Below are positions 31,935 through 42,261 of a stretch of 42,261 nt of DNA, piece after piece; the first letter of the stretch is position 1, and each line of letters opens with the position of its first letter. The notes beneath the pieces were generated by a model. The model saw only the letters and a program-made list of their open reading frames with translations. It did no database searches and had not been told where the DNA came from. The DNA is from an uncultured Spartobacteria bacterium (GTDB lineage Bacteria > Verrucomicrobiota > Verrucomicrobiia > Chthoniobacterales > UBA6821), in NCBI GenBank assembly GCA_903868795.1, contig CAIPWR010000033.1, forward strand, positions 1-42,261. Reading direction: 5' to 3'. A program made the position numbers and the translations under genes.

Positions 31935-32906
31935 ATGAAACGCTTTTTCTCACTCCTTGGCGTGTTTGGCCTTCAGTTGATTCTTTCAACATCCCATGCA
32001 GCCACATGGACGTTTGCCGTTGCCGGTGATGACCGCACTGATGTGCGTGCGACGCAGGTCGATCCCACAGGGATCCATACCGAAATCCTTGCCAAGCTGA
32101 TGCAATCGGTCTCGGCAGCTAAGCCCGCCTTCCTTCTCTTCACAGGTGACCTTGTCTATGGCGACAACATGCGGATCCCGCAGAAAATCGCGGAACAGTT
32201 CGCCGAGTGGAAGAAGCTGACCGCCAGCAATGCTCCCGGGCTCACGATCCTCCCGGTGCGTGGCAACCATGAAACCAACGGGGATCCCGAGGGGGTGGCA
32301 TGGCTCCAGGCCTTCGAGCCCGGGATGACCTCCAACAACGTCAGCTACTTTCCTGGGCAGAAAGGATTCAGCTACTCCTACATCGCCCCCGATCATCCCG
32401 AGACCGCCGTGATCGCGGTTGATCAGTATAATCCGGCAGCCCTTCACAAGGTCGACCTGAAGGGACTGGAAGCCTCCCTCAAGGAACTCAAGGCCAAGGG
32501 AGTGAAGAATATCTTTGTCTTCGCCCACGAGGAGGCATTCACCGCAGGTTGCCATCCCGACGCTGACAACATGGCCGCCCATCCGACGGATCGTGACAAG
32601 TTCCTGGAACTACTTCGCGAGTACGGATGTGAGTACTTCTTTGTCGGCCATGACCACTTCTACGATTGGATGGAGATCAAGAACTGGCGTTGGCCCTCCG
32701 ATTACGCGCTCAATCAGATTGTTGCCGGCACGGCTGGCGCACCCTTCTATCCTGACAAGACCTACTTTGGAGGGCACGACGGGTACGAACTCGTGCGACT
32801 CGACCACCGGCAGAACACCTACGGATACCTCCTTGTCACCGTGAATGATGCCCCGAAGGCCGACGAGAAAGCCGTGAGTGTGAAGTTCATGCCGCTGGTT
32901 CTGTGA
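31935..32906 (+). CDS. secreted calcineurin-like metallophosphoesterase
   Basis: 323 aa from ATG 31935 (MKRFFSLLGVFGLQLIL), giving a signal peptide cut near SHAA; the frame is open to 31857. It has the calcineurin-like metal-site motifs in order: FAVAGDDRTD, FTGDLVYGDN, VRGNHETNG, FAHEEAF and FVGHDHFYDW, so a two-metal phosphoesterase acting outside the cytoplasm is likely. The substrate is unknown. Its 3' half is duplicated at 35825-36331, where it interrupts a cas1 gene. Confidence 0.88.
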   Translation: MKRFFSLLGVFGLQLILSTSHAATWTFAVAGDDRTDVRATQVDPTGIHTEILAKLMQSVSAAKPAFLLFTGDLVYGDNMRIPQKIAEQFAEWKKLTASNAPGLTILPVRGNHETNGDPEGVAWLQAFEPGMTSNNVSYFPGQKGFSYSYIAPDHPETAVIAVDQYNPAALHKVDLKGLEASLKELKAKGVKNIFVFAHEEAFTAGCHPDADNMAAHPTDRDKFLELLREYGCEYFFVGHDHFYDWMEIKNWRWPSDYALNQIVAGTAGAPFYPDKTYFGGHDGYELVRLDHRQNTYGYLLVTVNDAPKADEKAVSVKFMPLVL

Positions 32907-33854: not shown

Positions 33855-34595
33855 ATGACTCATGACTCTGAAGGAAAATTTCGCCCGCTGGCGTCAGCTG
33901 ACTCCGGAGGAGAAGCTGCGTCGCCGCTGGGAGGCGATTCCGCAGGATGTGGCTCAGAGCATGGCCTTCGAGGGGGAACCGGTGCCGCTGGAGAGGATCC
34001 GCGAACGACTCGCCCTGATCGAGCCACCCGCTTTGTTGAGACCACGCGGGGAATCCTGAGTTATCAGGAACTGGCTCCCCTGCTGGCGGAGCGGGTGACC
34101 CTGGCGGAGGCGGCAATTTACTCGGGGGAATTCTCCGAATGCTTTCTCGACGAGAATCTGATTCTAGCGATTCACCATCGCATCTGCATGGATCTGGTTC
34201 CCGACTGGGCGGGGCGCTGGCGTTCCGTCGAGGTGAGGGTCGGAAACCTGCATCCAGCCCAGTCCTTCCTTCTTCCGATGTTGATGCGCGATTATACGCT
34301 CGATCTTCGCGCCCGGTTGGATGGGGCGACCGGAGGTGATGAGACAGCGCTTTTGGAGTGTCTTGCTTTCGCCGAGGGAAGGTTCCTCACAATCCATCCG
34401 TTTCAGGATTTCAACGGGCGAACGATCCGACTGCTGCTCACTGAATTACTGAGAAGGTTAGATTTGCCGATGGTCTCCTTGGCTCCCGAGGGGGAGGAGG
34501 TCCGGCAGTGTTACTTTGCGGCGCTTGAGGCTGCTGATGTGCACGACTGGCGTCCTTTGATGAAGGTCTGGGAGGGGCGGTTTGTCGGGGAGTAG
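33855..34595 (+). CDS. Fic-domain AMPylator-type toxin
   Basis: The frame from ATG 33855 gives 246 aa, but residues 1-58 are the shadow of the antitoxin gene. Conserved sequence begins near TTRGILSYQELAPLLAERV (about 34041). The Fic core is HPFQDFNGRTIR, with the catalytic His and the Asn-Gly-Arg anion loop; this subfamily has Phe where the canonical motif has Gly. The flap/WAGRWRSVEVRVGN segment is upstream, and the C-terminal helix has YFAALEAADVHDWRPL. Fic proteins transfer AMP (or other NMP) to hydroxyl groups of targets. No ATG, GTG or TTG lies in this frame between 33855 and 34095, so initiation, fusion by frameshift, or coupling is unresolved. Confidence 0.8.
   Translation: MTHDSEGKFRPLASADSGGEAASPLGGDSAGCGSEHGLRGGTGAAGEDPRTTRPDRATRFVETTRGILSYQELAPLLAERVTLAEAAIYSGEFSECFLDENLILAIHHRICMDLVPDWAGRWRSVEVRVGNLHPAQSFLLPMLMRDYTLDLRARLDGATGGDETALLECLAFAEGRFLTIHPFQDFNGRTIRLLLTELLRRLDLPMVSLAPEGEEVRQCYFAALEAADVHDWRPLMKVWEGRFVGE
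33862..34059 (+). CDS. class I Fic antitoxin (FicA-like)
   Basis: 65 aa, starting 7 nt after the Fic-frame ATG and overlapping it in a different frame. It contains SMAFEG (residues 33-38), an exact match to the (S/T)xxxE(G/N) inhibitory helix by which class I antitoxins (VbhA, YhfG) block the Fic active site. Around it are charged helices (MTLKENFARWRQLTPEEKLR and PLERIRERLALIE). The small size and position before a Fic gene fit a FicTA module. Confidence 0.78.
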   Translation: MTLKENFARWRQLTPEEKLRRRWEAIPQDVAQSMAFEGEPVPLERIRERLALIEPPALLRPRGES

Positions 34596-34608
34596 GAATG
34601 AACCCATC

Positions 34609-35235
34609 ATGGATCTTCTCCCCATCTCCGCGCTCCAGCATTACCTCTTCTGCCCACGTCAGTGTGCACTGATTCATCTGGAGCAGGAGTGGCGTGAAAA
34701 TCGCCTTACTGCGGAGGGAAGGGTTCTTCATAAGAAGGCACATGACGGGCCCGACGAGTCGAGACCCGGAATCCGGATCACGCGTGGCATGGCAGTCTCT
34801 TCTTACCTACTGGGACTCTCCGGCCAATGTGACGTGGTGGAGTTTCATATGGATGGAACTGTCGTCCCGGTGGAATACAAGAGGGGATCACCCAAGGCTC
34901 ATGAGGCAGATGAGATCCAACTCTGTGCCCAGGCTATTGCCCTCGAGGAGATGCTTGGACTTTCTGAATACGGGATCAGGGAAGGTAGGATTTTCTACGG
35001 AAAGCACAGGAGGCGCCACGCTGTGATCTTTGATGAGGAGCTTCGGGCTCTCACCTTCAACACGTCGGTTGCTCTGCACTCGATGATCGCCTCCCGTAGG
35101 ACGCCAGCCCCTATCTATACCCCCGATAAATGCGATGCCTGTTCACTCAATGAGATCTGTAATCCTGAAGCCTGCTCACCCAAGAGTTCGACTCAGGAGT
35201 GGTTTGAAAAGCAGGCTCTATCAATGCGCCAATGA
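34609..35235 (+). CDS. cas4: Cas4 (type I-C-like)
   Basis: 208 aa from ATG 34609 (MDLLPISALQHYLFCPRQC). A RecB-like nuclease with an Fe-S cluster: Cys15 at the N-terminus and Cys176, Cys179, Cys185 near the C-terminus (CDACSLNEIC), with one more Cys at 190. Nuclease residues appear in SGQCDVVEF (Asp) and VPVEYKRG (E-x-K). Cas4 trims and orients prespacers for Cas1-Cas2. Length and sequence style match type I-C systems (DUF83-type). It overlaps the following truncated cas1 by 4 nt (ATGA). Cas3, Cas5, Cas8c and Cas7 genes are absent from the window. Confidence 0.9.
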   Translation: MDLLPISALQHYLFCPRQCALIHLEQEWRENRLTAEGRVLHKKAHDGPDESRPGIRITRGMAVSSYLLGLSGQCDVVEFHMDGTVVPVEYKRGSPKAHEADEIQLCAQAIALEEMLGLSEYGIREGRIFYGKHRRRHAVIFDEELRALTFNTSVALHSMIASRRTPAPIYTPDKCDACSLNEICNPEACSPKSSTQEWFEKQALSMRQ

Positions 35236-35837
35236 AAACACATCTCAACACCCTTTTTGTGACTCTGGAAGGCTCCTATCTCCGTAAGGATGGTGCTGCT
35301 GTCGAGGTGCGCCACGAGGGGGAATCCAAACTCCGGGTTCCGCTACATAATCTTGAGGGCATTGTCTGCTTCGGATACGATATCTCCGCAAGCGTCTCCC
35401 TAATGGCAGGATGCTCCGAGGCCGGGGTATCTCTTTCCTTTCATTCACCAACCGGGAAATTCCTCGCCGCAACCCGGGGATTCACCTCGGGAAACATCCT
35501 TCTTCGCAGGGAACAATACCGTAGGGCTGATGATGAAAAGGCCTCCGCAAATCTGGCGAGGAATATCATTGCTGCGAAGATCGCCAATTCCCGGACCGTG
35601 CTTCTCCGGGCAGCCCGCGATCATGGAGACAAGGATCCCGTTGGCACGACGGCCCTGCTAACAGCATCGGACTTTCTCGATCACCGCTTGGCGATGACAT
35701 TAAGAACCGAGTCATTGGATAGCCTTCGGGGTATCGAGGGCGACGCGGCGGCGGCTTACTTCAGCGTCTTCAAGCACCTTGTGACGGTGAGTCATGGAGG
35801 GTTTTCTTTCACGGGACGAACACGGAGACCGCCGTGA
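35232..35837 (+). pseudogene. cas1: truncated type I-C-like cas1
   Basis: 201 aa against about 340 for type I-C Cas1. The N-terminal part is well preserved: LNTLFVTLEGSYLRKDGAAV, PLHNLEGIVCFGY, GNILLRREQYR, and LRGIEGDAAAAYFSVF with the catalytic Glu169. It stops right after FSFTGRTRRPP, where the normal protein continues into the C-terminal lobe with the His and Asp metal ligands. The break falls at a short match (GAGACCGCCG) to the metallophosphoesterase gene, whose sequence follows and supplies the TGA out of frame. It cannot be an active integrase. Confidence 0.88.
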
Positions 35838-36331
35838 TCGCGGTTGATCAGTATAATCCGGCAGCCCTTCACAAGGTCGACCTGAAGGGACTGGAAGCCT
35901 CCCTCAAGGAACTCAAAGCCAAGGGAGTGAAGAATATCTTTGTCTTCGCCCACGAGGAGGCATTCACCGCAGGTTGCCATCCCGACGCTGACAACATGGC
36001 CGCCCATCCGACGGATCGTGACAAGTTCCTGGAACTACTTCGCGAGAACGGATGTGAGTACTTCTTTGTCGGCCATGACCACTTCTACGATTGGATGGAG
36101 ATCAAGAACTGGCGTTGGCCCTCCGATTACGCGCTCAATCAGATTGTTGCCGGCACGGCTGGCGCTCCCTTCTATCCTGACAAGACCTACTTTGGAGGGC
36201 ACGACGGGTACGAACTCGTGCGACTCGACCACCGGCAGAACACCTACGGATACCTCCTTGTCACCGTGAATGATGCCCCGAAGGCCGACGAGAAGGCCGT
36301 GAGTGTGAAGTATGTGCCACTTGCACTCTGA
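35825..36331 (+). pseudogene. duplicated 3' half of the metallophosphoesterase gene
   Basis: 507 bp colinear with 32400-32906 and without indels. I count four mismatches in the first about 485 bp, then eight in the last 21 bp (C-terminus VKYVPLAL against VKFMPLVL). The reading frame is intact from the junction to the stop, but it lacks the signal peptide and the first three metal motifs; only FAHEEAF and GHDHFYDW remain. A GTG at 35834 could start a 165-aa product, but this would be inactive. Confidence 0.9.
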
Positions 36332-36332
36332 A

Positions 36333-36517
36333 GAGGCTTGGGATTAAGGCGCCGCGGGGTGTTCGACTACGCTCGCAACGCCGAGTGCTGGGAAGCACGG
36401 AGTAGCCTGTGCAAAGCACAGCCCCGTAGGGGTGAGGCCGTCGGGAGACGTCGAGGCAATATGATTCATTACAGCTTCGCTTGTCGGCTTACCGCAGCAT
36501 CCTTAATTCCAAGCCTT
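36333..36517. other. large folded element with 17-bp closing stem
   Basis: GGCTTGGGATTAAGG (36335) is complementary to CCTTAATTCCAAGCC (36501) with one G-U, extended by two pairs. Inside are at least five hairpins in a row: GGTGTTCGA/TCG-c-AACGCC (36358-36382), GTGCT-GGGA-AGCAC (36385-36398), CTGTGC-AAA-GCACAG (36407-36421), CCCC-GTA-GGGG (36422-36432) and CGTC-GGGA-GACG (36439-36450). It begins 2 nt after the pseudogene stop. It may be a structured RNA or a short palindromic mobile element; no open frame of interest lies inside. Confidence 0.65.
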
Positions 36518-36573: not shown

Positions 36574-36602
36574 GCCTAGGACCTTGATGGGGAGGTAGGG
36601 TT
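36574..36602 (+). repeat. direct repeat upstream of the acidic gene
   Basis: GCCTAGGAC followed by CTTGATGGGGAGGTAGGGTT. The same sequence recurs at 37134-37171 with 9 nt more in the middle (ACTTGGTGT). The two copies flank the 131-aa acidic gene. Confidence 0.8.
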
Positions 36603-36667: not shown

Positions 36668-37063
36668 ATGGACGACCTTACGGCCACAAATCAGATCGAG
36701 TCACTTATCTATAATGTCCTGTTTAACCATCTTCCCAGCTTCGACGAGATTGTTAAAAGTAGTAGCCCTCCCTACTGGTGGTATGCCGAGATCCCGGAAC
36801 TCAATACCTTTCTGATCTTGCAGCAGAAGAGTGAGCCGAGTCCTCACCCAGTCTCCGAATATGTTTGGGAACATCCGAATGATGTCACCATGGGAGAATA
36901 CTACCTCTTGCTTGAGTTTGACCCCGATTCGATCGGAGAAGAAGTAACCATCTCAATGCTCGAAGCGATCAAGGAACTCCCGGTCTACGTGCGATTTGTT
37001 GAGGACCTCATTCCTTACGCCCCCACCGAGGCGATTGAGATTATGAATAACTTGATGAAATAA
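36668..37063 (+). CDS. very acidic orphan protein upstream of cas9
   Basis: 131 aa, unrecognised. I count about 23 Asp/Glu against 5 Lys/Arg, a net charge near -18. It has aromatic clusters (PPYWWYAEIPE, GEYYLLLEFDPD). It lies between two copies of a direct repeat, on the same strand as cas9, 267 nt before it. Acidic small proteins beside nucleases may be DNA mimics or immunity proteins, but nothing in the sequence proves a role here. No signal peptide or membrane segment. Confidence 0.65.
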   Translation: MDDLTATNQIESLIYNVLFNHLPSFDEIVKSSSPPYWWYAEIPELNTFLILQQKSEPSPHPVSEYVWEHPNDVTMGEYYLLLEFDPDSIGEEVTISMLEAIKELPVYVRFVEDLIPYAPTEAIEIMNNLMK

Positions 37064-37133: not shown

Positions 37134-37171
37134 GCCTAGGACACTTGGTGTCTTGATGGGGAGGTAGGGTT
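37134..37171 (+). repeat. direct repeat downstream of the acidic gene
   Basis: Second copy of the repeat at 36574, with the extra ACTTGGTGT creating a GACAC-TTG-GTGTC hairpin. It lies just past the tracrRNA terminator. Confidence 0.8.
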
Positions 37172-37197: not shown

Positions 37198-37315
37198 AAA
37201 AAAAACGGCGACCTGAAGGTCGCCGTTTTCTTAGAAGCGCTATTGATCCGATGTGTAACCTTAGGTAACAGTGAAACGGTCTGCGCTACCAACTTTGTCT
37301 TGATTCCGTTAGTAC
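37198..37315 (-). ncRNA. tracrRNA of the type II-C system
   Basis: Read on the minus strand, GGAATCAAGACAAAGT (37292-37307) pairs with the 5' end of the repeat in minus orientation (GCTTTGCCTTGATTCC): 14 Watson-Crick pairs, one C-A mismatch and one terminal G-U. It is followed by about 60 nt with small stem potential, including a hairpin around ACC-TAA-GGT and complementary AGCGC/GCGCT segments. It ends with a strong terminator hairpin and T8. The order anti-repeat, nexus, terminator is that of a tracrRNA. A -10-like TTTAGA (37316-37321) and -35-like TTGTGT (37338-37343), 16 nt apart on the minus strand, would start it near 37309. Confidence 0.87.
37202..37229 (-). terminator. tracrRNA terminator
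   Basis: Stem CGGCGACC/GGTCGCCG (37206-37213 and 37218-37225) extended by A4/T4, with a 4-nt loop. The minus strand reads into eight T (37198-37205). On the + strand it is followed only by TTTTC, so it works mainly for minus-strand transcripts but may also stop read-through from the acidic gene. Confidence 0.92.
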
Positions 37316-37330
37316 TCTAAAAGTTCCCTT

Positions 37331-40300
37331 ATGAATAACACAACTCAAAATCTCGATCTGGCCTTCGATGTCGGCCATGACTCCATCGGTTGGTCCGTTC
37401 TCTCACACGAAGGGGATGCGCCTGACATCAAGGGATGCGGTGCTGTGATCTTCCAAAAGGACGGGTGCCTTGCTGTCAAGCGAAGGGGATACCGTCGTCA
37501 GAGACGACACATTCGCTCGACCCGCCAGAGAATCGCTCGGATGAAGAGTCTGCTTCGTGCCTTGGGGGTCCTTGATGACAGGGCACTCGACGAGGTCTCC
37601 TCATCCAGTCCGTGGTTCCTGGCCGCCGGTGTTCTGGTGGGAAGCAGGACGCTGACATGGCCCGAACTCTGGGATGTCCTGCGCTGGTATGCCCACAACC
37701 GAGGATACGATGGCAACCGAGGATGGGCCATCAACGACAGCCTTGAAGAGGAGGATGACACAATCAAAGTCGAAAACGCCAAGGGGCTCTACGGAAAGCA
37801 CGGCACCCGGACCATGGCGGAAACACTCTGCGCGGAACTCAAAATCGATCCGAAGGGAGAGAAGGCTTCCTCCCGGATGCGCTTCAAGGGTTTGGATGCT
37901 GCCTTCCCGCGAGAGGATGTCACGGCCGAGATTCGCCGAATCCTAGAGGCGCATAAAGATGTGCTTCCCAAGATCGATGACCTGCTGATCCGTTCACTGA
38001 TCGGGAAAGGCCCCGATGACTACGAAGCTTGGAAGACGATCCCCGTCGAGGGGATGAGAATACCGCTCCGCTATCGGGGTAGTCTTCTCATGGGGCAGTT
38101 GATCCCGCGATTTGAGAACAGGATTATCTCCCGATGCCCCGTCCTCTATCAGCGGATCCTCCAGAAGAGGTTGGACGAAGGGTGGGTACGCGAGGAGGCG
38201 GAGGCCGATGCGGAAAAGGGGTCCAAGGTGCCGGCCAAGTCGGTCGTCGAGTTCCTACGGTTCCGTTGGGCGATGCTTCTGGCGAATATCCTCATCTCCG
38301 AACCCGGGGGAAAAGCCCGTCCCCTCAACATGGCGGAACGCTCTGCGATGGATCAAAAGATGAGGGAGGCCGGATCGATGACGGCGACCGAGTTCAAGAA
38401 AGCCCTCATTGAGGTGGTCGGTCCGCTGAAGTCGAATGCGGAGGCAATGCTCACCCATCCGGACGCCGACAAGGCCCTCGTGCTCGATGCTGCGATGAGG
38501 GAAATCCGCAAGGGGGCCTTCGGAATTATCTGGGAACATCTCGACGAGCAAACGAGGAAGAGAACGCTGGGGCGGCTTCGTCACGGAAAGCCGGTAGATC
38601 TGGTCGACCTCGTCGCAGGAAACCAGAAAGCCAAGGAGGCCTTGGAACAGCATGTTTCCAAAGCATCGAAGAGCAAAGGCAAGGGAGCCAAAGTCGCAAA
38701 GGCTCCTATCACCCTGGAGAGCCTTCTTTCTGAGACGATCTCGGTGAACCCTCCGCAAGGAAGGGCTCCCTTCAGCAGGGAGGTGATGCGGGAGGCTGTC
38801 GCCGATGTCATGGAGAGGGGAATCCATCCGACAGCCGAAGGAGGGGTTCTTTATCGGGGTGAGGAGATCAGAAAAGCTCAGGTCGAAAGAAGGCTCGATG
38901 ACCAAACTAACAACCATCTTGTGCGTCACCGCCTCCTGATCCTGGAGCGACTGCACAACGACATCATCGAAAGCTATGCGGACGGGGATCCCGGACGCAT
39001 CGGGAGGATCACCATCGAGGTGAACAGCGAACTCCGCGCCATGTCGGGCAGGACGGCCAAGGAAATCGCCCAAGAGGAGGGGAAGAAATTGGCAGATTTC
39101 AAGGATGTCACCAAGGAGCTTGAGAAGCGTTTGGAGGGCACCGGAATCACCATCACCGCAGGTCTGATCCGCAAAGCCCGCATCGCCAAGGATCAGGGCT
39201 GGAGATGCCCTTACACTGGCAGGGACTTCGATGTGATGGATCTAGTGAGCCGCAAGGTGGACAAGGATCACGTCATCCCGAGAAGCCTGCGGCCGAGCGA
39301 CAGCCTTGATTCCCTGGTCATCACCTTCTCCGAGGTGAACCGGATGAAGGGTCAGCGGACAGCATTGGCTTTCATCGAGGAGTTCGGAGGAAAGCCCGTT
39401 GATGGACGCCCGGAACTCAGCATCATGAGTTCTTCTTCCTATCAGGAATCCGTGAAAAAACTGGATGAGCGCAAAGGGCACGACGACGACAAACGGCGGA
39501 AAAAGAACCGCAAGCGCCTCCTCCTAATGAGGGATTATGTCGAGAAGGAGTTCACTCCGGGGGATCTCACCCGCACCTCTCAGTTGGTGAGGTTGGGAGC
39601 CCAGTTACTCGAGCGTCCCTACATGGAGCAGGAGAAGAGACCCGTCATCACCTCTCTGCCGGGGAGCGTGACCGGCGCCGTCAGGAAAAGTTGGCGGCTT
39701 CTCGGATGCCTCCAACAGGCGAACTCCTTGGTGACCGACGGAATGACCAAGACCGATGTCCGGTCGGTCACGCATCTGCACCATGCCCTCGACGCCTCGG
39801 TGCTGGCGCTGGCCTCGCACTTCCTGCCCGGGGACGGGGGAATTTGGGAATTGCTCGTGAAAAGAAAGCTCTCCCCCTTCGAGCAGGAGCATCTCTTGAA
39901 AAAAGGACGCCAGTTTGCCCGGGACAGCGAGGGGAGGGTCTCTCTTATCGACCTTCCCTCCTATCTCAAGAACCAGCTCGGGGAGCGGCTTGCCGAGAAG
40001 CGGGTGGTTCAGCATATCCCTGCCGACATGAGTGGATTGGCTGCCGAGGAGACGGTCTACCGCGTCTTCGATCCCAAGGACACTCATCCCTCGGCGAGGC
40101 GGATTGCCAAGTGGTGTGCGGCTCGCGGGATTGAGATCCCGGACCCTCGGGATGAGGAAGTTCTACTGGTCTGTCGGAAACGCCGGGCCGAGCAGGAGAG
40201 CGGCGAGGTGCTTCATGAGACACCGACATGGCGCTGGATCTATAAGATCGAAAAGCGTTCCAAGCTCCTCGGCTTGGAGCCTGCCCACGGCTCCAATGGA

Positions 40301-40669
40301 AAACTGAAGGCCCAGAAGGCCGTGAAGATCATCAGGGAGAATTTCGGACTGGCCTTGGATCCCGAACCGGAAGTCCTCCAACTGAGTTCCGTATGGAAGC
40401 GTCTTGCCGAGTTAAGGAAACAATGCGGTCAGAAGATCCGAGTTCTTCGAAACGGTGATCTGATCACATTCACGTCGCCAGACACTCCGGAAAAAAGACG
40501 TGGAATCTGGCGGATAACCTCTGTTCAAAATGCTGAAAAAGGCATCAAGATAGACCTGTTCCGACCAGATCAACTTGTGCGTAGCAAGGAGTCATGGAGG
40601 GAAGTTCCAATTGGTAATTTGCATAAGTATCAGGTCAAAATTATAAAACCAAAGCTCACGGGTATTTAG
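37331..40669 (+). CDS. cas9: Cas9, type II-C
   Basis: 1112 aa, in the compact type II-C range. RuvC-I is LAFDVGHDSIGWSVL with catalytic Asp13. The Arg-rich bridge helix KRRGYRRQRRHIRSTRQRIA spans about residues 50-70. RuvC-II is ITIEVNSEL with Glu563. The HNH domain has CPYTG (Cys626), DKDHVIPRS with catalytic His647, and EVNRMKGQRT. RuvC-III is HLHHALDA (815-822). The remaining C-terminus is the PAM-interacting region. All nuclease residues are present, so the protein should cut both strands of crRNA-matched DNA. The start ATG is 16-24 nt from the tracrRNA start and has no ribosome site. cas1 begins 4 nt after the stop. Confidence 0.97.
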   Translation: MNNTTQNLDLAFDVGHDSIGWSVLSHEGDAPDIKGCGAVIFQKDGCLAVKRRGYRRQRRHIRSTRQRIARMKSLLRALGVLDDRALDEVSSSSPWFLAAGVLVGSRTLTWPELWDVLRWYAHNRGYDGNRGWAINDSLEEEDDTIKVENAKGLYGKHGTRTMAETLCAELKIDPKGEKASSRMRFKGLDAAFPREDVTAEIRRILEAHKDVLPKIDDLLIRSLIGKGPDDYEAWKTIPVEGMRIPLRYRGSLLMGQLIPRFENRIISRCPVLYQRILQKRLDEGWVREEAEADAEKGSKVPAKSVVEFLRFRWAMLLANILISEPGGKARPLNMAERSAMDQKMREAGSMTATEFKKALIEVVGPLKSNAEAMLTHPDADKALVLDAAMREIRKGAFGIIWEHLDEQTRKRTLGRLRHGKPVDLVDLVAGNQKAKEALEQHVSKASKSKGKGAKVAKAPITLESLLSETISVNPPQGRAPFSREVMREAVADVMERGIHPTAEGGVLYRGEEIRKAQVERRLDDQTNNHLVRHRLLILERLHNDIIESYADGDPGRIGRITIEVNSELRAMSGRTAKEIAQEEGKKLADFKDVTKELEKRLEGTGITITAGLIRKARIAKDQGWRCPYTGRDFDVMDLVSRKVDKDHVIPRSLRPSDSLDSLVITFSEVNRMKGQRTALAFIEEFGGKPVDGRPELSIMSSSSYQESVKKLDERKGHDDDKRRKKNRKRLLLMRDYVEKEFTPGDLTRTSQLVRLGAQLLERPYMEQEKRPVITSLPGSVTGAVRKSWRLLGCLQQANSLVTDGMTKTDVRSVTHLHHALDASVLALASHFLPGDGGIWELLVKRKLSPFEQEHLLKKGRQFARDSEGRVSLIDLPSYLKNQLGERLAEKRVVQHIPADMSGLAAEETVYRVFDPKDTHPSARRIAKWCAARGIEIPDPRDEEVLLVCRKRRAEQESGEVLHETPTWRWIYKIEKRSKLLGLEPAHGSNGKLKAQKAVKIIRENFGLALDPEPEVLQLSSVWKRLAELRKQCGQKIRVLRNGDLITFTSPDTPEKRRGIWRITSVQNAEKGIKIDLFRPDQLVRSKESWREVPIGNLHKYQVKIIKPKLTGI

Positions 40670-40673
40670 ATTT

Positions 40674-41573
40674 GTGGGCTTCCATACCGTCACTGTTGAT
40701 GCGGCGGAATGTTTCCTTGGGTGTAAGTCTTCCCAACTGATCTGCCGAACCGACGAGGGGGAGAGGACCCTCCCCCTCGAGGATGTGGCCAGCATTGTGG
40801 TGACGGGTTTTAGCGGCACGGTGCACAGCGAGCTTCTGTTGGAATGCGCCGAGCGGGGTATCCCGATGATTTTCTGCAGGGCCTATCGTCCGAGTGCGCT
40901 GGTCTATCCCGCGAACCGCAGCACCGACACCATCCTGACCCGTGCCGTCCTCAGGTTGAGTCCAACTATCAGAGGCAGCCTCTGGCGTGCCACGCTCGAT
41001 GCCAAGTGCCTGGGCCAATGCACGGCCGCTAGGGAGTATGGAGCTGATCCAGCAGACCTTGTCCCGATGGAGGCCATGGCCCGTGGAAAAAATCCCGCTC
41101 GGGAAGCAGCCGTGGCAAGGTCCTACTGGGGCCTCTGGGGGGCTTCGGCCGGTCTTGGGAAGTTTCACCGGGAACGATCCCTCGACGGGGCGAATCAGCT
41201 TCTTAACTACGGTTATGCGGTCCTCCTATCCTGCGTGCTCCAGAAGCTCTTCGCCGTGGGGATCGATCCCTCCTTCGGGATCGCCCATGTCGTTCGGGAG
41301 CGGAGCGATCCGCTGGCGTATGATTTGATGGAGCCGTTCCGCATGCTTGTCGATCGCAGGGTGCGGGAGTGGATTATCGAACTGGGAGATTCGGAATGCG
41401 TGGTGGACAAGGCATTCCGAGCCCATGTGATCCGATTCCTCAAGGATCCCATCGAATACCAAGGCCGCCCAATGGAGACTGCCTCCTGCGTTGAGGCGGT
41501 AGTACGATCCATTCGCGCGGCAATCCTTAGGGGAAAGTCTTCCCTCTACCGGCCATGGACCTTCACACGCTGA
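40674..41573 (+). CDS. cas1: Cas1, type II integrase
   Basis: 299 aa from a GTG at 40674, 4 nt after the cas9 stop. It is the spacer integrase that works with Cas2. Metal ligands are in place: Glu144 (NPAREAAVARSYW), His205 (FGIAHVVRERSDP), and Asp217/Glu220 (YDLMEPFR). The N-terminal beta domain contains LPLEDVASIVVTG and LLLECAERGIPMIFC. It is unlike the truncated type I-C Cas1 upstream; the two belong to different subtypes. It overlaps cas2 by 19 nt. Confidence 0.96.
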   Translation: MGFHTVTVDAAECFLGCKSSQLICRTDEGERTLPLEDVASIVVTGFSGTVHSELLLECAERGIPMIFCRAYRPSALVYPANRSTDTILTRAVLRLSPTIRGSLWRATLDAKCLGQCTAAREYGADPADLVPMEAMARGKNPAREAAVARSYWGLWGASAGLGKFHRERSLDGANQLLNYGYAVLLSCVLQKLFAVGIDPSFGIAHVVRERSDPLAYDLMEPFRMLVDRRVREWIIELGDSECVVDKAFRAHVIRFLKDPIEYQGRPMETASCVEAVVRSIRAAILRGKSSLYRPWTFTR

Positions 41574-41890
41574 AAATGGGATGGCTCCTCGTCGCCTTCG
41601 ACCTTCCGGTCGGGACAAAGGAACAGCGGAAAGCCGCCACGGGGTTTCGGGAGTTTCTGCTGGATGACGGCTTCCAGATGATCCAGTGGAGTCTCTACGC
41701 TCGGAGTTGTGTGACCATCGCCAGACAGGAGACCCATATGGCCAGAGTGAGGGGGAATCTTCCTCCCGAGGGGAGTGTGCGTGCGATCTTTGTCACCCGA
41801 GCCCAGTGGGAGCGTTCCTTTGTGATCCATGGATCGCCCGCGAAGCCCCTGTCTCCAGAGGAGATGCCGGAACAGCTTCTGATCTGGTGA
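41555..41890 (+). CDS. cas2: Cas2
   Basis: 111 aa, ferredoxin fold. Starts at ATG 41555 inside cas1 (MDLHTLKMGWLLVAFDLPVG); an alternative ATG at 41576 is closer to the usual start. The first strand ends in the conserved Asp (VAFDLP), and the second part has FQMIQWSLYARSCVT and GSVRAIFVTRAQWE, typical of type II Cas2. It is the structural partner of Cas1 in spacer integration. The array begins 41 nt downstream. Confidence 0.94.
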   Translation: MDLHTLKMGWLLVAFDLPVGTKEQRKAATGFREFLLDDGFQMIQWSLYARSCVTIARQETHMARVRGNLPPEGSVRAIFVTRAQWERSFVIHGSPAKPLSPEEMPEQLLIW

Positions 41891-41931: not shown

Positions 41932-42261
41932 AGTTTCTCTGCCCCTGAATTGGAATCAAGGCAAAGCCTGCTCGAGGGGTACCGCATGATGTGCATAAGT
42001 TTCTCTGCCCCTGAATTGGAATCAAGGCAAAGCTGTAGAAGGCCTCGATGCCGTACGGAGATTAGTTTCTCTGCCCCTGAATTGGAATCAAGGCAAAGCG
42101 AATACCAGCTCAGATTGCGTGAAGGGTATAGTTTCTCTGCCCCTGAATTGGAATCAAGGCAAAGCACCAATTAGAGCGTACTACATACTCACGATAGTTT
42201 CTCTGCCCCTGAATTGGAATCAAGGCAAAGCATGATGGTAACTCTCACCATGCCACATACT
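41932..42261 (-). CRISPR. CRISPR array, 36-nt repeats, runs off the window
   Basis: Five identical 36-nt repeats start at 41932, 41998, 42064, 42130 and 42196, each followed by a 30-nt spacer; the fifth spacer ends exactly at the window edge. The + strand repeat begins AGTTTCTCTGCCCCTGAATT and ends GGAATCAAGGCAAAGC. The tracrRNA anti-repeat fits the minus-strand repeat (5' GCTTTGCCTTGATTCC), so crRNAs are probably read from the minus strand, with the leader beyond the window and the cas2-proximal repeat oldest. All repeats are perfect, including the terminal one. Confidence 0.98.

Follow-up and report, generated by a model that had tools for sequence, protein, structure and literature searches.

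The window analysed here is a stretch of 42,261 nucleotides (nt), positions 1 to 42,261 of contig CAIPWR010000033.1 in the assembly GCA_903868795.1 of an uncultured Spartobacteria bacterium, and it carries a cas9 gene preceded, on the opposite strand, by a short structured element. On the evidence of its sequence, this element taken as a whole is very probably the trans-activating CRISPR RNA (tracrRNA) gene of a type II-C-like Cas9 locus found in Spartobacteria-like Verrucomicrobiota, with a promoter placed over the start of cas9. The support comes from the pairing of the anti-repeat with the CRISPR repeat and the co-change of the two partners, a conserved structure, a terminator, a position divergent from cas9 and a promoter position that is fixed across the clade. 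The predicted gene, its parts and its neighbour cas9 are the following.

37198..37307, minus strand: predicted tracrRNA gene with a 110-nt transcript, composed of an anti-repeat, a conserved structured core and a terminator (covariance model; covariation).
37292..37307, minus strand: anti-repeat of 16 nt, at whose first G the predicted RNA starts (repeat pairing and co-change across loci).
37233..37286, minus strand: structured, nexus-like core, with outer helix AGCGC/GCGCT, inner helices CCG/CGG and a TGTTACC/GGTTACA hairpin (covariation).
37198..37228, minus strand: Rho-independent terminator, a hairpin and T8 (sequence and fold).
37331..40669, plus strand: cas9, 1112 amino acids (TIGR01865, E 8e-66; HNH_4).

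The anti-repeat, which reads GGAATCAAGACAAAGT on the minus strand, has as its partner the 5' half of the repeat read from the minus strand, beginning at its 5' end with GCTTTGCCTTGATTCC. The resulting duplex comprises 14 Watson-Crick pairs, one G-U and one C.A mismatch, in agreement with an earlier sequence-only reading that had proposed a 16-nt minus-strand anti-repeat with one mismatch and one G-U. That reading had also suggested folding the duplex: the energy obtained was -18.6 kcal/mol, compared with -5.4 +/- 2.1 kcal/mol for 500 shuffled repeats, the best of which reached -13.5, and the true repeat thus outdid them all. Cofolding of the tracrRNA with the repeat recovered the full architecture at -57.0 kcal/mol. 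Pairing of the anti-repeat with the plus-strand repeat was far weaker and was rejected. Because the duplex forms with the minus-strand repeat, the array is predicted to yield CRISPR RNA (crRNA) from its minus strand, against the direction of the cas genes, and the crRNA form taken as predicted partner would begin spacer-GCTTTGCC. The terminator hairpin, CGGCGACC-TTCA-GGTCGCCG followed by T8 (37228-37198), and the covarying core confirm the nexus-like region and strong T8 terminator that had been described from the sequence. Using a simple criterion, a terminator was found in 56 of 91 clade loci. A crude scan with a general promoter and terminator scanner called none at the tracrRNA 3' end, which we think reflects the ability of the stem to extend into the A/T tract.

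Cas9 relatives were gathered from the same order and class and from named genomes; they belong mostly to Verrucomicrobiota and include Akkermansia, Luteolibacter, Roseibacillus and Opitutus as well as Lentisphaerae and Kiritimatiellae. The loci were searched with a profile built from four tracrRNAs. In every one of the 92 distinct loci with a profile match the tracrRNA lay on the strand opposite to cas9 and immediately upstream of it, the very position, antisense to and directly upstream of cas9, that had been claimed for the window. Six loci gave no usable profile match, some of them because cas9 or the contig was cut; the covariance model afterwards recovered a tracrRNA in 3 of 8 checked genomes. 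Conversely, when 289 genomes of the phylum were searched for the RNA first, 21 gave a match, 19 beside a divergent cas9 and 2 as orphans. These two tracrRNA-like genes with terminators (L173 1501-1584 in genome G247 and L178 1501-1585 in genome G267) were each examined with 15 kb of surrounding sequence, in which no matching cas9, cas1 or array occurs; their genomes also yielded no Cas9 of this type. They can be read as decayed loci or as reused RNAs. The locus L041 (genome G057) has a cas9 lacking its N-terminus and an array of the same repeat type, and no tracrRNA was found in its genome.

The structure of the core was assessed on an alignment (A2) of 53 sequences with 14 pairs in three helices. 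There, 92.7% of the cells were paired compared with 78.9% in shuffles, and the observed covariation was reached by 0 of 500 shuffles. Changes on both sides were seen in 11 of the 14 pairs, for a total of 107 two-sided cells compared with 31 +/- 5 in shuffles. Repeat and anti-repeat also change together: over 10 distinct combinations, 89.4% of positions were paired, compared with 78.8 +/- 2.4% after shuffling of the partners, and none of 5000 shuffles was as good. Examples are the replacements of GATTCC/GGAATC by GAATCC/GGATTC and of GCTTTG/CAAAGT by GTTTTG/CAAAAT, and the CATAG variants in Kiritimatiellae. The mismatch adjoining CAAAG is itself kept nearly always across loci.

The sequence-only reading had named a better anti-repeat elsewhere in the genome as an observation that would speak against it. 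In the 2.77-Mb assembly, we found neither such an anti-repeat nor a second tracrRNA by sequence match and covariance model. All other exact matches to the anti-repeat lie within the CRISPR array, and the sole site with a single mismatch (C32:1494) sits inside a long open reading frame (ORF). The covariance model, built from the tracrRNAs of the relatives, gave a single genome match at 37307-37228 (E 6.7e-13), the runner-up being a CRISPR repeat (E 1).

We located the promoter by aligning the loci on the anti-repeat, positions being counted from the end of CAAAG. The unfitted columns display a T-rich pair (-57/-56), then TTG (-50 to -48) and TA....T (-27 to -22). With a fitted two-box model, the -35 box fell within one base of -50 in 74 of the 92 loci, with an equal median in every gap class, and the distance from the tracrRNA side to the cas9 ATG ranged from 7 to 424 nt. 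Because the offset to the anti-repeat is fixed while the distance to the ATG varies, the boxes belong to the tracrRNA and not to cas9. The promoter score in a held-out test averaged 7.7, compared with 0.9 at random places, and 65% of the loci exceeded the 95th percentile. The corresponding predicted boxes in the window are:

37338..37343, minus strand: tracrRNA -35 box TTGTGT, inside cas9 codons 3-5; its position fits the clade motif anchored on the anti-repeat.
37314..37319, minus strand: tracrRNA -10 box TAGAGT; its position fits the clade motif.

From the spacing of the motif, the start is placed on the first G of the anti-repeat, so that 37307 is probably the tracrRNA 5' end and the best-supported one. 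A minus-strand RNA of about 110 nt starting at 37315 had been proposed: its length agrees with the predicted 110 nt, but position 37307 is better supported as a start and 37315 lies within the inferred -10 box. The cas9 ATG (37331) falls in the spacer between the two boxes. A start further upstream is prevented by an in-frame TAG (37310-37312), and little room is left on the downstream side, where the conserved RuvC-I region follows after a few codons. Across the clade, the ATG lies strictly between the boxes in 20 of 92 loci and overlaps the -35 box or lies at most 12 bp from it in 32 more; about half of the loci thus have the start codon in the tracrRNA promoter, overlapping it or at most 12 bp away.

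Several results weigh against this assignment. The 92 loci are mutually related, and the counts obtained on them are not independent. The Rfam scan of the window returned no match at the gathering score and no tracrRNA family among the weak matches. The general scanner, run on the window, reported no promoter at the tracrRNA; the window boxes alone agree with 8 of 12 consensus bases, below the 9 of 12 asked by the scanner. The promoter overlapping the cas9 start, already suspected from the sequence, is supported by the comparison of the clade and is weak in the window alone. Furthermore, the held-out model favours in the window the pair TTGAGT/GAACTT, 5 bp further upstream, a register that would shift the start towards 37315.

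One could object that the element is no tracrRNA, and that a chance anti-repeat happens to lie beside the terminator of the upstream gene, since the anti-repeat is short and a convergent gene could make use of the terminator hairpin. This we regard as hardly credible, as it is contradicted by the conservation across the clade, the covariation, the co-change with the repeat and the uniqueness in the genome. Very improbable too is a longer tracrRNA, starting from a promoter deeper in cas9 and repressing this gene as a natural single guide. Such a form, the long tracrRNA of Streptococcus pyogenes (tracr-L), guides Cas9 to its own promoter and requires, ahead of the anti-repeat, a sequence resembling the repeat (PMC11417352); the divergent layout is the same in that species (PMC11417352). 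In the window, however, no repeat-like partner for the anti-repeat was found within 250 nt upstream (score 13.5, compared with 27 for the true repeat), and the inferred tracrRNA start lies at the anti-repeat itself. Across loci the upstream-partner score was 14.5, compared with 13.3 in mononucleotide shuffles, and one of the three best partners was the -35 box itself. This small excess would be due to that box, whose CTTGA is the complement of a part of the anti-repeat.

As a tracrRNA gene, the element would be transcribed by RNA polymerase from a sigma-70-type promoter over the first cas9 codons, in the direction leading away from cas9. Beginning with the initial G of the anti-repeat (37307), the RNA would run for about 110 nt and stop at the hairpin and T8 (37198). 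The 5' half of the repeats, in minus-strand transcripts of the array, would pair with its anti-repeat, and the duplex, together with the conserved core, would load Cas9, the duplex presumably being processed by a host RNase. We thus infer from sequence that this RNA is transcribed, processed and bound by Cas9. Since the tracrRNA promoter and cas9 transcription would share one stretch of DNA, they could interfere with each other, and the coupled or antagonistic expression of tracrRNA and cas9 put forward by the sequence-only reading is a reasonable, possible consequence.

The promoter and the transcription start of cas9 could not be placed with confidence from the plus-strand candidates and the enrichment tests across loci, which were weak or compromised by the relatedness of the loci. 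Transcription of cas9 beginning within about 20 bp of the tracrRNA start, as that reading had proposed, is accordingly a mere possibility. One weak candidate can be listed.

37295..37323, plus strand: hypothetical cas9 promoter, TTGTCT (37295-37300), 17 bp, TAAAAG (37318-37323).

The two promoters would then be face to face and overlapping: cas9 would be transcribed from TTGTCT/TAAAAG as a leaderless messenger RNA starting at the ATG, the DNA would accommodate one polymerase at a time and the two RNAs would antagonise each other. Both hexamers and the 17-bp spacing are present, the ATG comes 7 bp after the -10 box and TAAAAG shares 2 bp with the tracrRNA -10 box. Shine-Dalgarno-like sites are scarce in these loci (5 of 30 in the gap class of the window, 19 of 129 for the other ORFs), which is compatible with leaderless transcripts; being rare in general, the lack of such a motif at cas9 says little. 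Against this arrangement, a plus-strand -10 at the place of TAAAAG was not significantly enriched (z 0.2 in the relevant gap class), and TTGTCT is fixed by the anti-repeat, so that its presence is no evidence for a cas9 promoter. We therefore judge it unlikely, and equally doubtful that overlapping, mutually exclusive promoters set the ratio of Cas9 to tracrRNA by competition for polymerase instead of by a long self-guiding tracrRNA. Another plus-strand site, based on TTGATT, reached a z of 4.1 in the 35-52 nt gap class and was not relied on, because several loci are near-identical there and control sites gave z of about 2 to 2.6. Somewhat less doubtful, and still tentative, is the possibility that transcripts reading through towards cas9 could pair with the tracrRNA and be cut by RNase III, while the read-through itself would clear the tracrRNA promoter. 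As candidate boxes, TTGATG and TGAAAT are found some 150 bp before the cas9 ATG and upstream of the tracrRNA terminator. Yet no conserved promoter was found across loci at that position, and the nearly symmetric terminator hairpin, followed by TTTTCTT on the plus strand, may stop transcripts coming from upstream.

The remainder of the locus lies downstream of cas9.

40674..41573, plus strand: cas1 (cas1_NMENI, E 4.6e-41).
41555..41890, plus strand: cas2 (TIGR01573, E 2.4e-14).
41932..42261, minus strand: CRISPR array of 36-nt repeats separated by 30-nt spacers, with 5 repeats before the contig ends (repeats; predicted orientation from the tracrRNA pairing and the clade repeat promoter motif).

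The gene set is restricted to cas9, cas1 and cas2, with no csn2, as in type II-C; the assignment, which agrees with the II-C-like locus first proposed, rests on this gene set, NCBIfam giving only its general cas9 model. The array carries on in contig C50, which opens with the last 10 nt of the same spacer and adds 20 full repeats and a truncated final one, for 26 repeats in all. The clade repeat consensus contains a putative promoter, with a -35 TTGATT at positions 9-14 and a -10-like xAnAaT at positions 31-36, 16 bp apart and facing the same reading direction as the predicted crRNA; the -10 of the window repeat, GAAACT, is weak. Repeat-embedded promoters have been described for type II-C (PMC12080349, PMC7038990). 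On C50, the repeat that is transcribed first lacks five bases, those pairing with the end of the tracrRNA, which agrees with reports of mutated extra repeats in II-C (PMC12080349). Related intergenic repeat elements in opposite orientation are found at both ends of the CRISPR-cas locus, at 36345-36470 and at 1380-1520 of L037 (C50), the latter directly after the truncated last repeat.

Between a phosphatase gene fragment and the tracrRNA lies an acidic ORF of 131 amino acids (36668-37063). It matched nothing in Pfam, NCBIfam, PADLOC and PHROGs and had no relative in 57 related genomes, and for these reasons we did not count it as part of the system. It is flanked by an exact 20-nt direct repeat (36583-36602 and 37152-37171) present at these two sites only, adjoined by a palindrome, CCTAGGACAC-TTG-GTGTC, with relatives on contigs C124 and C136. 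Further upstream, 2 kb away, Cas4 (best match Cas4c, E 2.4e-81) is followed by a truncated Cas1 of 201 amino acids (34582-35837). This fragment appears to be separate from the locus and left over from a second CRISPR adaptation module; it is cut where a duplicated segment begins. The latter belongs to a metallophosphatase gene and is present in two near-identical copies (32400-32906 and 35825-36331; 99% in the first 300 nt) on either side of the region of Fic and the cas4-cas1 fragment; the duplication looks like a recombination scar.

The layout is not as unusual as had been assumed from the sequence, since a tracrRNA upstream of cas9 is documented in S. pyogenes and in several II-C systems (PMC9067536, PMC10281378, PMC7038990, PMC12216829). 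As here, the II-A loci of S. pyogenes and Group B Streptococcus have the tracrRNA upstream of cas9 (PMC11417352, PMC12216829). In these streptococci the tracrRNA region also holds the cas promoters and a mechanistic link between tracrRNA and cas9 expression has been shown (PMC11417352, PMC12216829); they possess two tracrRNA promoters and a long self-guiding form, whereas the window has one inferred promoter and no repeat-like upstream partner. The description of CRISPRCas_38, in Bacteroidetes II-C, resembles the window RNA although the phylum differs: its anti-repeat matches type II-C repeats, and its distance to cas9, which lies downstream, is typically at most 100 bases, with overlap of the predicted start in some cases (PMC9067536). 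The authors ascribe this overlap partly to misassigned start sites, whereas the window start is fenced by the in-frame stop at 37310. For EHCas9, a II-C enzyme with nearest homologues in Alphaproteobacteria, the passage compared describes, in a cas9-cas1-cas2 locus, a tracrRNA of about 100 bp that has its own promoter and terminator and precedes cas9, and an array inferred to be transcribed in the direction of the tracrRNA, and states no overlap with the cas9 start (PMC10281378). The II-C locus of Clostridium cellulolyticum, from a different clade, also has its tracrRNA upstream of the cas genes, and its array is transcribed opposite to them, as is predicted for the window, with transcription starting inside the repeats according to RNA sequencing in E. 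coli; its tracrRNA products, 70-107 nt, were measured, whereas the length in the window is predicted (PMC7038990). A similar upstream position has been reported in Riemerella (PMC5006608). The divergent tracrRNA upstream of cas9 is thus already known, and the window locus is a further well-supported case; for the clade-wide overlap of the tracrRNA promoter with the cas9 start, we found no description in the literature compared.

The analysis yields a tracrRNA prediction, a repeat direction and a covariance model for a large and little-studied group of Verrucomicrobiota Cas9 outside Rfam coverage, and such predictions are what the testing of these enzymes requires. With the tracrRNA promoter conserved in its position over the cas9 start, these loci are also a compact natural setting in which to ask how bacteria might balance Cas9 and its RNA without the long tracrRNA of streptococci.
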